The notes under the pieces are model-generated. The model was not told where the DNA came from, ran no database searches, and saw nothing but the letters and a program-made list of their open reading frames with translations. 46,452 nt of DNA from Paludibacteraceae bacterium (GTDB taxonomy: Bacteria > Bacteroidota > Bacteroidia > Bacteroidales > Paludibacteraceae): the NCBI GenBank assembly GCA_017630395.1, contig JAGBVI010000083.1, positions 1 to 46,452 of the forward strand, written 5' to 3'. The translations under genes and the position numbers were made by a program. Shown one piece after another: positions 15,951 through 22,804 of the stretch. Numbering within the stretch: the stretch's first letter is position 1; the number at the start of each line of letters is the position of its first letter.

Positions 15951-16023
15951 AATGAAAGTTCTCATATAAAAAAAAAAAAAACAGGTAAAATTCTATGTTT
16001 TTCCAATAGCCTATGCAGCACGA

Positions 16024-18192: not shown

Positions 18193-18956
18193 TTCAAATT
18201 TTTTATATTAAACACCGGACCATCAGAACAAACACATTTATGACCTACAGAAGTCTCTGTCACACAACATAAACAAGCGCCTAAACCACAAGCCATTTTA
18301 TTTTCTAACGAAACCTCACAATCCACGCCTTCTTTTATTGCAAAAGAGGCTACACTTTTCATCATAGGAGTAGGTCCACAAGTATAAATTCTAGCATATC
18401 TCTGTTTTCTCAATACAGAATGATTGGTAACATACCCTGTCTCACCCTCTGAACCATCTTCTGTAGTAACATACACATCACCATATTTACGAAACTCATC
18501 TAACAACAATAAACCGGAAGCAGTTCGAGCTCCCAAAAGGTAATCAATCTGAAAACCATCTCTTTTCAACTCTGCCCCCAACATCAACAAAGGAGCAATA
18601 CCAACACCACCTCCTACTAATAAAACCTTATCGCGAGCATTAGTAGGTTTAGAAAAACCATTCCCTAACGGCATAATTATGTTTACGACATCACCTGCTT
18701 TTAACGTCGAAAGATGATTAGTACCATCACCTACTAATTGAATAAGCAACCATAACTCATTTGTTTTATAATCGACAAAATTAATGGATATTGGACGACG
18801 TAAAAAAACGGTTGGAGTGTGGTCTATACGAACTTCAACAAATTGTCCGGGCACCACTCCTGGAAGTTTTTCGTTGGATGTTAATTTCATCAATATATGG
18901 TTCTCACCAATAAACCGATTTTCTGTAATCGTTAAGTCTAAGAGATGTTTTTTCAT
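18186..18956 (-). CDS. pyrK: Dihydroorotate dehydrogenase B, electron transfer subunit PyrK
   Basis: A 256-residue flavoprotein that passes electrons from PyrD to NAD. It has the FAD-binding motif FLRRPISI, the ferredoxin-reductase-like [14 protein letters not shown] and [13 protein letters not shown], and YTCGPTPMM. The C-terminal [2Fe-2S] cluster motif is [10 protein letters not shown] followed by a fourth cysteine in HKCVC. It is first in the pyrK-pyrD-hypothetical transcript. Confidence 0.94.
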
Positions 18957-18984
18957 TTCTATACTAAATAAATATTTATTTTTA

Positions 18985-18992
18985 CAAATATA
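18985..18992 (-). promoter_or_regulatory. Candidate -7 element of pyrK-pyrD
   Basis: CAAATATA on the + strand reads TATATTTG on the minus strand, matching TAnnTTTG, about 30 nt upstream of the pyrK start. No good -33 element is seen at the expected distance. Confidence 0.4.
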
Positions 18993-19057
18993 AGAAGCAA
19001 ATTGAGAAGGTTTAGAATTTTTCTCAAAAAATTTCTATTACCTCCTATTTTTTTTAC

Positions 19058-19065
19058 TACCTTTG
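19058..19065 (+). promoter_or_regulatory. Candidate -7 element of dnaX
   Basis: TACCTTTG followed by C matches the Bacteroidota -7 consensus. Transcription would start near 19072, only about 11 nt before the ATG at 19083. This argues against the longer open frame that begins at 19002, upstream of this promoter. Confidence 0.6.
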
Positions 19066-19082
19066 CAAAAAAGCTAAAAGAT

Positions 19083-20189
19083 ATGGGAGATTATGTTGTA
19101 TCAGCAAGAAAATATCGTCCGTCAACCTTTGCTTCGGTTGTTGGTCAGCAGTCGCTTACCACAACTTTGAAAAATTCGATTGCGACAGGTCGGTTGGCTC
19201 ACTCCTACCTTTTTTGCGGTCCTCGCGGTGTAGGAAAGACTACTTGCGCCCGTATCTTTGCCAAAACAATCAATTGTTCTAATCTAACAAGCGACTTCGA
19301 ACCTTGTAACGAGTGTGAATCTTGTAAAGCTTTTAACGAAAATCGGTCATACAATATTCATGAATTAGATGCTGCTTCCAACAACTCTGTTGAAGACATT
19401 AGAAGCATAACCGACCAGGTTCGTATCCCTCCTCAGATAGGAAAATATAGTGTATATATCATCGATGAGGTTCACATGCTGAGTTCAAATGCATTCAACG
19501 CATTTTTGAAAACCCTAGAAGAACCGCCTTCGTACGCTATATTCATCTTGGCAACAACTGAAAAAAATAAGGTTTTACCGACCATCTTGTCTCGTTGTCA
19601 GGTATATAATTTTCAACGCATTAGCATAAAAGATGTTGCAAATCAACTTCAATATATAGCAGATAAAGAAAATGTTAAGACTGAAATTGAAGCACTAAAC
19701 GTCATCGCACAAAAAGCGGATGGTGCTATGCGTGATGCACTTTCTATTTTTGACCAACTTGTCGCAAGTACTTCTGGGAATGTCACCTACAAAAATGTTG
19801 CCGAAAATCTTAATATATTAGATTACGACTACTATTTTAAATTTGTAAATTATTTTTTAGAGGAGAAAATCCCAGAGTGTTTATTGGCATTTAATGATAT
19901 TTTGAACAAAGGTTTTGATGCTCACATCTTCATTGGTGGATTGGCTTCACACCTACGTAATCTGATGGTTTGCAAAGAGCCTGCGACTCTTGAATTATTG
20001 GAAGTTGGTGAAGAGACCAAAAATAGTTACAAAACACAGGCAGAAAAGTGCGACAAAGATTTCTTAATAAAAGGATTATACTTGATAAATCAATGCGATC
20101 TGAGTTATGCTGAAAGTAAAAACAAAAGATTGCTCATCGAATTAATGCTCATTCGTTTATGCCAATTAACGAGTGAAAAAAAAAAATGA
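19083..20189 (+). CDS. dnaX: DNA polymerase III clamp-loader subunit gamma/tau, zero-frame product (gamma form)
   Basis: From the ATG at 19083 the zero frame encodes 368 residues of the AAA+ clamp-loader ATPase. It shows VGQQSLTTTLKNSI, Walker A GPRGVGKTTCARIF, the zinc module CSNLTSDFEPCNECESC, Walker B IIDEVHML, LSRCQVYNF with the SRC sensor, and the KADGAMRDALS sensor-2 region, then the domain III collar. The frame ends in Ser-Glu-Lys-Lys-Lys-stop within an 11-A run. The following 219-codon frame carries the tau-like tail. The layout is the one expected if gamma is the unshifted product and tau needs slippage, but a homopolymer sequencing error would look identical. Confidence 0.9.
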   Translation: MGDYVVSARKYRPSTFASVVGQQSLTTTLKNSIATGRLAHSYLFCGPRGVGKTTCARIFAKTINCSNLTSDFEPCNECESCKAFNENRSYNIHELDAASNNSVEDIRSITDQVRIPPQIGKYSVYIIDEVHMLSSNAFNAFLKTLEEPPSYAIFILATTEKNKVLPTILSRCQVYNFQRISIKDVANQLQYIADKENVKTEIEALNVIAQKADGAMRDALSIFDQLVASTSGNVTYKNVAENLNILDYDYYFKFVNYFLEEKIPECLLAFNDILNKGFDAHIFIGGLASHLRNLMVCKEPATLELLEVGEETKNSYKTQAEKCDKDFLIKGLYLINQCDLSYAESKNKRLLIELMLIRLCQLTSEKKK

Positions 20190-20832
20190 ATTAGGGTATG
20201 ACGATATTTGGGGGATCAATGATTTGGCTCTTCTTCCTTTCATACCTAACATTCCAATAGAAGCACCAACTAACCCAACATACTCTTCTCCGACTCCGAC
20301 TCTAAATAAAGAGAGCCAAAATCAACAGCCGGTAGGCTCTCAACCTGTTCAACCTCAAAACTATTCCTCTGCAAGAAAATCAATTAAAAGTTTTTCTATA
20401 AAAGGGAGTATCAACAAAAAGGAGGAAGAGATCAAGCAGGAAGAAGAACGACTAATGGCTCTTTCTCAAAATAAAGAATTTACACAAGAAGAACTTATTC
20501 GCTGCTGGAACAACTTTATAAAAGGATTGACAGAAAAACAGATTTTGAAAAACACAATGATGAGTTGCAAACCTCAATTAGAAGAGGATTTCAAAATTAC
20601 TGTTCATGTAGATAATTCAGTACAAAAAGAACAATTGGAACTAGAGTTGGTGGCCCTAACCAATCATCTGAGAGAGAACTTAAAAAATGGGAAAATCGAG
20701 ATAGTTATTCATATCAATGAAATGGGAGAAAGTATAAAAACCAAAACAACTCATGAATTATTTATGGAGCTAAAGGAAATATCTTCTGATTTTGCAAAAT
20801 TTGCAGAGCTACTAAAATTAGAAGTAGAATAA
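20173..20832 (+). CDS. dnaX: DnaX tau-specific C-terminal part, in the shifted frame
   Basis: This frame is open from inside the 3' end of the dnaX zero frame and encodes a Pro/Gln-rich linker (PTPTLNKESQNQQPVGSQ), a Lys/Glu-rich stretch, then a folded domain. The folded domain (RCWNNFIKGL, FKITVHVDNSVQKEQLELE, LLKLEVE at the end) resembles the C-terminal region of Bacteroidota DnaX. It has no independent promoter or convincing start; a GTG at 20173 is the only candidate. Joining it to the zero frame needs loss of one A, or gain of two, and would give a protein of about 582 residues, a normal length for DnaX. Confidence 0.75.
   Translation: MKKKNELGYDDIWGINDLALLPFIPNIPIEAPTNPTYSSPTPTLNKESQNQQPVGSQPVQPQNYSSARKSIKSFSIKGSINKKEEEIKQEEERLMALSQNKEFTQEELIRCWNNFIKGLTEKQILKNTMMSCKPQLEEDFKITVHVDNSVQKEQLELELVALTNHLRENLKNGKIEIVIHINEMGESIKTKTTHELFMELKEISSDFAKFAELLKLEVE
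20176..20186 (+). other. A11 slippery run in dnaX
   Basis: Eleven consecutive adenines span 20176-20186. The zero frame reads GAA AAA AAA AAA TGA; the downstream tau frame is offset by +1 (equivalent to -2). A -1 shift would stop almost at once at a TAG (20192-20194). Transcriptional slippage on A runs is known to make gamma and tau in Thermus, and ribosomal frameshifting does so in E. coli. Confidence 0.6.
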
Positions 20833-20938
20833 AGACGCACTAACCAACTTCAGTCTTAACACACACCTACTCTACACGTTCAATCACATAAAGAATCTTA
20901 CACTTAGCAACCCTTAAACCAATTTAGGTGAAAACAAA

Positions 20939-21001
20939 AAAAGTACTTATACTGCGCTGAAATGAGTTTTTAAAATCACCCAACGCACCATAAGTACTTT
21001 T
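20939..21001. terminator. Bidirectional hairpin between dnaX and the phosphohexomutase gene
   Basis: AAAAGTACTTAT (20939-20950) and ATAAGTACTTTT (20990-21001) are perfect 12-bp inverted repeats, with a shorter GCG/CGC pair inside the loop. On the minus strand the stem runs into seven Ts, so it would terminate the operon ending at 21065. On the + strand a weaker T stretch follows and could end dnaX. Confidence 0.7.
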
Positions 21002-21064
21002 ATATAAGTCTATTTTAACAGAAACTATTTAATGCACCCCAAAGAGGGAGCATAGAAAAATCAA

Positions 21065-22804
21065 TTATAGGCCAAGAGACTTCTTGATAGCATCCACTTT
21101 TGCATTAGCTTCAGCATCCACTTTTGCATAGTCACCAGAAGAAAAATCACCCTTAACCTCTACATAGAACTTGATCTTAGGCTCTGTTCCGGAAGGACGA
21201 ACACTCACCTTTGTACCATCTTCAGTAAAGAACTGCAAAACATTAGCAGATTCAGGCATATTAATATCCTCAATCTTTCCACATTTAACACAATTTTGTT
21301 TCAAAGATTTGAAGTCCTTTATCAACTTAACCGGAGATCCAGCCAACTCTTTTGGAGGATTATTACGGAAATTTTCCATCATTGCCTTAATTTCGTCGGC
21401 ACCACTTTTTCCTGGTTTAACGACACTAATAGCACTCTCTTTTTGGAATCCGTATTCCTTATAAATATTCATCAACAATTGATACAAAGACATTCCATTA
21501 TCTTTCGCCCACGCAGCAATTTCGCAGATAAGACAGATAGAAGCCGGAGCATCCTTATCACGAACTTTATCATAAGGCAAGAATCCAAAAGACTCCTCAC
21601 CTCCACCAATGTATTTCTCTTTTCCTTCGTTTTCGCGAATACGATAAGCAATCCACTTAAATCCGGTATACTCATCATATAACTTCACATTATTTTTTTC
21701 AGCAATTTCACGAATTAATTCAGAAGTAACAATAGTTTTAACCAAGAATTCATTTCCTTTCAATTTACCCAACTTCTTCATGTTGGTAATGATATAATAA
21801 CAGAACATCATACAAGTCTGATTTCCATTAATAATCATCCACTCACCTTTATCATCACGACAAACAATAGCAAGACGGTCTGCATCCGGGTCAGAAGCGA
21901 TAACCAAATCAGCTCCCAACTTAGTACCTAAATTCATTCCCATTGTCATCGCTTCAGAGTTTTCCGGATTAGGCGACTTCACTGTAGAGAAATTACCATC
22001 AATAACCATTTGTTCAGGAACGACATTGATATTTTGGAATCCCCAAGAACGAAGGCACAATGGAACAATAACGCGTCCGGTACCATGAAGAGGAGAATAA
22101 ACAATATTCAAATCCTTTTGGCGAAGAATAACATCTTGATCCACCATAGCCTCTTTAACAGCCTCAAGGTAATCATAATCCATCTCCCCTCCGATGATAG
22201 TAATTAACTCTTTATTAGGAGTAAATTTAACATCCTCGATTTGCACTTTATTTACTTCATCAATAATACCCTTATCATGCGGAGCCAAAACTTGCGCACC
22301 ATCATCCCAATAAGCCTTATACCCATTATACTCTTTAGGATTATGAGACGCAGTAATATTTACACCGCTTTGACACCCCAATTGACGAATAGCAAAAGAA
22401 ATTTCCGGAGTAGGACGTAAACTTTCAAAAAGAAATGCTCTAATACCATTAGCAGAAAAAATTCCCGCAACAATCTCTGCAAAAAAACGAGAATTATTAC
22501 GACAATCATGCCCAACAACTACACTAATATCTTTTTTATCAGCAAAAGCTTTTTTCAAGTAATTAGCCAATCCTTGAGTTGCCATACCAACCACGTACTT
22601 ATTCATACGATTAGTACCCACACCCATAATACCACGCAAGCCACCGGTTCCGAACTCTAAATTTTGATAAAAAGCATCAATCAATGCTGTTTTATCAGAA
22701 CTATCCAACAAACTCTTTACCTCAGCTTTTGTTTCAGAATCAAAATTACCACTTAACCATGCATTAGCTTTTGCGGTAACCTCTTGCAATAAAGCATTAT
22801 CCAT
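21065..22804 (-). CDS. Phospho-sugar mutase (phosphoglucomutase/phosphomannomutase)
   Basis: A 579-residue alpha-D-phosphohexomutase that interconverts hexose 1- and 6-phosphates. The catalytic phosphoserine loop is NITASHNPKEYNGYK (about 145-160), the metal-binding loop is DPDADRLAIV, the sugar-binding loop is GGEESFGF and the phosphate-binding loop is RPSGTEPKIKFY. FGTGGLRGIMG near residue 50 is also typical. Length fits the PgcA-like long form of Bacteroidota and Firmicutes. It starts 16 nt after nagB and closes the secA-lgt-nagB-mutase run; a hairpin terminator follows. Confidence 0.92.
   Translation of the reverse strand: MDNALLQEVTAKANAWLSGNFDSETKAEVKSLLDSSDKTALIDAFYQNLEFGTGGLRGIMGVGTNRMNKYVVGMATQGLANYLKKAFADKKDISVVVGHDCRNNSRFFAEIVAGIFSANGIRAFLFESLRPTPEISFAIRQLGCQSGVNITASHNPKEYNGYKAYWDDGAQVLAPHDKGIIDEVNKVQIEDVKFTPNKELITIIGGEMDYDYLEAVKEAMVDQDVILRQKDLNIVYSPLHGTGRVIVPLCLRSWGFQNINVVPEQMVIDGNFSTVKSPNPENSEAMTMGMNLGTKLGADLVIASDPDADRLAIVCRDDKGEWMIINGNQTCMMFCYYIITNMKKLGKLKGNEFLVKTIVTSELIREIAEKNNVKLYDEYTGFKWIAYRIRENEGKEKYIGGGEESFGFLPYDKVRDKDAPASICLICEIAAWAKDNGMSLYQLLMNIYKEYGFQKESAISVVKPGKSGADEIKAMMENFRNNPPKELAGSPVKLIKDFKSLKQNCVKCGKIEDINMPESANVLQFFTEDGTKVSVRPSGTEPKIKFYVEVKGDFSSGDYAKVDAEANAKVDAIKKSLGL

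Follow-up and report, generated by a model that had tools for sequence, protein, structure and literature searches.

The dnaX gene at positions 19083–20832 of the window (the whole stretch of 46,452 nt that was analysed, contig JAGBVI010000083.1 of a Paludibacteraceae bacterium) raises the question of how the tau part of its product is made when the frame encoding the AAA+ core closes at a run of adenines and the tau region lies in a different frame.

A dnaX gene divided at a run of eleven adenines

The original prediction, made from this stretch of DNA alone, placed the end of the dnaX zero frame right after eleven As, with the tau region continuing in the +1 frame to 20832. Direct reading bears this out, as a TGA (20187–20189) stands immediately behind the A11 run (20176–20186) and closes the zero frame after 368 codons. 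The +1 frame is open downstream to a TAA at 20830–20832, and upstream only back to 20170, behind a TAA at 20167–20169. The two frames thus overlap over 17 nt, comprising the run and the six bases before it, and because both are open nowhere else, any change of frame must take place within the run or these six bases. The features of the locus are as follows:

19083..20189, + strand: zero frame of dnaX, with the AAA+ core and collar domain of a gamma-like product of 368 aa (NF011531, TIGR02397, Pfam and PDB matches)
20170..20186, + strand: the sole stretch in which the core and tau frames are both open, 17 nt, flanked by TAA 20167–20169 (tau frame) and TGA 20187–20189 (core frame)
20176..20186, + strand: A11 run, the putative slippery site (read directly; A10–A12 in 14/14 recovered same-genus loci)
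20187..20189, + strand: TGA closing the unshifted, gamma-like product (read from the sequence)
20187..20832, + strand: tau C-terminal region in the +1 frame, ending at TAA 20830–20832 (NF011531 positions 434–613; purifying selection against the nearest relative)

The core alone scored 708 bits against the NF011531 (PRK14971) profile, above its curated cutoff of 685, which identifies it as a DnaX, and it also exceeded the cutoff of TIGR02397 in the profile search. Pfam domains DNA_pol3_delta2, DNAX_ATPase_lid and DNA_pol3_gamma3 were found within it, and residues 4–358 matched the E. coli gamma/tau chains of the PDB. Although the first start in the list of open reading frames is a TTG at 19002, the ATG at 19083 was adopted because the NF011531 profile aligns there from its first position. 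From this start the zero frame encodes a gamma-like product of 368 residues with an AAA+ core, as predicted. The +1 segment alone matched positions 434–613 of the 614 in NF011531 (E 5e-20). A profile search for PDB relatives of the tau C-terminus found none that was convincing (best E 0.042), and an AlphaFold model of the C-terminal segment (window 20425–20829; pLDDT 71) gave weak PDB matches in Foldseek, the best to DciA (E 0.011) and the next to DnaA domain I.

The predicted consequences of altering the run also follow from the sequence: the loss of one A or the gain of two gives a DnaX of 582 residues, while a −1 slip adds two codons and then meets a TAG. Stops in the two non-tau frames lie 5 and 0 nt past the run. 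Runs of at least A10 are rare in this genome: counting both strands and allowing overlaps, A10 occurs 99 times in 3.57 Mb.

Some other features of the window and genome were recorded in passing. Fourteen As occur between two open reading frames at window 15968–15981, and runs of A10/T10 or longer lie inside open frames of 453, 336 and 436 codons (L231, L236 and L249; putative genes) elsewhere in the genome. Downstream of dnaX, an inverted repeat at 20927–21020 (AAGTACTTAT ... ATAAGTACTT) may be a terminator or a small repeat; two Rfam microRNA matches on it fell below the gathering score and were taken as chance.

Conservation of the split among close relatives

The original prediction had called for a comparison with close relatives, expecting a conserved run with an adjacent stop, and had named relatives with no run at this place as evidence against it. 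The search covered 16 genomes of the genus; 14 yielded a dnaX locus, which was fragmented in one case, and the other two gave weak AAA+ matches alone. In all 14 recovered loci the gene is split at the same run, which is A10 in four, A11 in eight and A12 in two, with a stop close behind, so that each has the two-ORF form of dnaX in which tau depends on recoding. The tau frame is +1 in 12 and +2 in two, and as none has tau in frame, the default product in this genus is steadily gamma. The expected conservation is therefore present within the genus, where no locus lacks the run; run-less relatives do exist at greater distance, and in these tau is always or nearly always in frame.

The nearest relative (L002) shares 97% identity in the core and carries A12 where the window has A11, so that different shifts are needed in the two genes. 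Their tau parts nevertheless align over 214 codons free of gaps, and the changes number 32.5 at 127.5 synonymous sites and 25.5 at 514.5 non-synonymous sites (dN/dS approximately 0.16, compared with 0.04 in the core). The tau part is thus under purifying selection in both genes, though it is out of frame differently in each; this pattern argues against both sequencing error and gene decay.

Genes from the wider order bear on the same point. The order search gave 290 matches, and among the 150 listed, 30 had an open frame shorter than 430 aa (counted by hand); 28 of these were newly fetched, along with four long-frame genes from single-contig genomes (L287–L290). Tau was out of frame in 28/28 of the short-frame genes, 26 of which carried A10–A13, and in 24 of these 26 both non-tau frames stopped within 30 nt (the exceptions being L276, at 132 nt, and L279, at 106 nt). 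Three came from single-contig genomes (L258, L259 and L260), each split at A10. In the four long-frame genes tau was in frame throughout, with A11 in L289 and no run in L287, L288 and L290. An assembly or sequencing error, with A11 written for A10, was the alternative raised by the original prediction, and homopolymers are indeed error-prone and the assembly is in 128 contigs; however, the split in 14/14 genus loci and in all 28 short-frame order genes, three of them in single-contig genomes, contradicts it and leaves this explanation with an almost negligible probability.

Run length, closed frames and the encoded frame

The survey was extended to 201 distinct loci with both core and tau, comprising 125 from the genus and family search and 76 from named genome records. 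These were drawn from 211 loci with a core, after removal of seven for which no tau match was found (L032, L153, L214, L056, L068, L073 and L084, some of which run off contigs) and three duplicates (L132, L167 and L184); L132 and L184 duplicate loci of the named set, so two family members are counted there. L017 is a further piece of the gene in L014. DNA was examined for 131 of the 275 matching family genomes, nearly in match order, with three near contig ends skipped (G195, G088 and G169) and three lower matches taken (G131, G072 and G036). The sample leans to the nearer relatives of the window. The run was absent in 7/7 loci examined from genus g22, the most sampled genus among the matching family genomes, and as the best matches were examined first, this large genus is under-represented and the family-wide share of run-bearing loci lies below the 101/125 found here.

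A junction run of at least A9 was present in 159/201 loci (101/125 in the genus and family set, 58/76 in the named set), while the cores of these 159 genes, which were picked from the 201 for their junction run, contained no run of at least A9 in 166,851 nt. The run at the junction is therefore more than chance; among loci with a G+C content of at least 50% it was found in 12/26. Of the 159 genes, 107 encode tau in frame, and the remaining 52 divide equally between +1 and +2 (26 each). Both non-tau frames stopped within 30 nt in 153/159 (102/107 in-frame and 51/52 split genes), whereas within the cores of these genes this holds for 24% of positions on average (range 0.2–56%). Mean stop distances of the two other frames were 10 and 6 nt in the in-frame genes, versus 49 and 28 nt under synonymous recoding, and 7 and 8 nt in the split genes, versus 59 and 24 nt; for individual genes the effect is moderate, with the later stop at a mean percentile of 0.29 (in-frame) and 0.21 (split) where approximately 0.5 is expected. 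The window and these 153 loci thus share the layout described for Thermus, namely a junction run of at least A9 with near stops in both non-tau frames. In the 42 run-less loci tau was in frame in 41 (including L113, with a stop in that frame), and gamma made by slippage seems dispensable there; L097 is split though it has no run.

The encoded frame varies with the run. Tau was out of frame in 52/159 loci with at least A9 and in 1/42 without (Fisher 1.7e-5), and in the family set in 38/101 with the run and 0/24 without (Fisher 9.9e-5), both uncorrected for relatedness. The share of split genes by run length, likewise uncorrected, was 0/15 at A9, 28/91 at A10, 22/48 at A11, 2/4 at A12 and 0/1 at A13, and a run of at least A10 accompanied 52/53 out-of-frame tau genes. 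Parsimony on a FastTree phylogeny of dnaX cores required at least 9 changes between in-frame and out-of-frame tau in the family set and at least 19 across all 201 loci, and at least 13 changes in the presence of the run. Over the history of these relatives, the encoded form seems to have switched in both directions. The 107/159 loci with tau in frame exceed the third expected from free drift of run length and, together with 0/14 in the genus, this indicates that the encoded frame is selected or inherited rather than simply neutral.

A pair of genes from one order genus shows such a difference at close quarters: in similar surroundings, tau is out of frame in L268, which carries A12, and in frame in L289, which carries A11, so that the encoded product differs by a single base of the run.

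Variation of run length between species, from A9 to A13, would also be compatible with replication slippage at the run, producing phase variation of tau at the DNA level within a population. Tau is required for normal replication, however, and the closure of both other frames beside the run likewise counts against this reading, which we regard as very improbable. The tau part could also be translated as a protein of its own from a start within the overlap, for example by coupling. The window does have a tau-frame GTG just before the run (20173), nine split genes have an ATG in that position, and 12/52 have GTG or TTG only, somewhere in the scanned stretch; yet between the opening of the tau frame and approximately 45 nt past the run, 31/52 split genes lack any ATG, GTG or TTG in that frame. 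An internal start was accordingly rejected as a general route to tau, and we give it hardly any weight as an explanation of the window.

Probable slippage at the run and comparison with known systems

The dnaX gene of the window is very probably a programmed slippage gene, in which RNA polymerase would slip on A11 to give both gamma and tau, a reading drawn from the arrangement of the gene and its relatives. Slippage would yield mRNAs with mixed numbers of As: unslipped A11 messages would encode the 368-residue gamma-like clamp-loader subunit, those with A12 nearly the same protein, two residues longer, and those with A10 or A13 the core joined to the +1 frame, giving a tau of 582 residues. 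Slips during reading are probably needed for the long form, and gamma would be the default product throughout the genus. With one frame open and both non-tau frames closed after the run, the default could shift in evolution while both subunits would still be made.

Ribosomes might instead change frame on the run, either by programmed frameshifting or by sliding on AAA lysine codons. In E. coli, which with Thermus provides the classical cases, dnaX undergoes a −1 ribosomal frameshift at A_AAA_AAG, stimulated by an SD-like motif and a stem-loop. The window would resemble that gene in obtaining gamma and tau from a single gene at a lysine AAA/AAG site, but it requires a different phase: its A11 is followed by T, and tau lies in +1, out of reach of a −1 shift. 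No strong stimulators, whether an SD-like motif upstream or a fold downstream, were found in the window or across the 159 loci. An SD-like motif within 25 nt upstream was present in 33/159 (21%), compared with 15% of control windows. Folding of the 60 nt downstream in the 159 loci was slightly above control, with a mean z of −0.40 versus −0.14 and z below −2 in 11% versus 6%, and the 70 nt downstream in the window itself gave z −1.38. An Rfam scan of 18900–21100 detected no frameshift element.

Ribosomal sliding on poly-A has been reported (PMC4363877), and two genes of one order genus (L264 and L265) have a site of the E. coli kind, with a zero-frame stop after 367 aa at AGA AAA AAG TAG, tau in −1 and no A-run. 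Over the 77 nt that follow the stop, the fold had a z of −3.3 in one of them and −1.4 in the other; over 60 nt starting at the stop, the values were −0.8 and +0.9 (simple shuffles). Two other genes of their family (L267 and L272) carry A10, and slippage may possibly have been replaced by an E. coli-like ribosomal frameshift site in L264 and L265. For the window, however, a ribosomal change of frame is unlikely. Both +1 and +2 tau occur within one genus, and this mixture of phases, the weakness or lack of stimulators and the 17-nt overlap in the window together favour slippage of RNA polymerase, of the Thermus type, over ribosomal frameshifting. The use of all frames among close relatives similarly fits polymerase slippage rather than a ribosomal shift of fixed direction.

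Slippage in dnaX of Thermus thermophilus was reportedly described by Larsen et al. in 2000. According to later accounts, that gene carries A9 with near stops in both other frames, slippage on the run amounts to about half, and the mixed transcripts give tau and gamma (PMC1088944, PMC5009743). Tau is the encoded frame there, as these accounts present it, whereas gamma is encoded in the window. Transcriptional slippage on A11, the same run as in the window, has been measured at approximately 20–25% in tssM1 of Citrobacter rodentium, a gene unrelated to dnaX, and the roles are described as reversed in tssM3 of Yersinia (PMC4256274). With Thermus dnaX, this case shows that bacterial slippage at runs of this kind can be efficient. 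Atkins et al. (2016; PMC5009743) point out that a difference of a single nucleotide is enough for the roles to be swapped.

The layout in which tau is reached by recoding was already described by Antonov et al. (2013; PMC3711429), whose GeneTack analysis reports 17 two-ORF dnaX genes in 12 genera, 12 of them with a poly-A of 7 to 10, nine of these being A10. The window shares with these genes a recoding-dependent tau, a gamma encoded in the zero frame and, as in most of them, a poly-A at the junction. The published genes are all given as −1 shifts at the DNA level, unlike the A11 and +1 tau of the window. Transcriptional realignment was proposed for the two-ORF dnaX genes, and orthologues with differing shift directions serve as its criterion in the same study (PMC3711429). 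What is added here is that the encoded frame has changed repeatedly. No account of such changes among Bacteroidota was found in a search of open-access article texts, which is weak evidence of novelty.

On balance, we think it rather probable that the core–tau junction acts as a frame-tolerant cassette in many Bacteroidota, in which A10–A12 with a single open exit frame would let the encoded frame of an essential gene change repeatedly, with gamma or tau as the default, while both subunits are still made. If so, gene callers may truncate dnaX, or call an essential replication gene broken, in many of these bacteria. The group would also offer a natural series of run lengths and encoded frames with which to ask how they affect the gamma:tau ratio and whether gamma is retained for some purpose.
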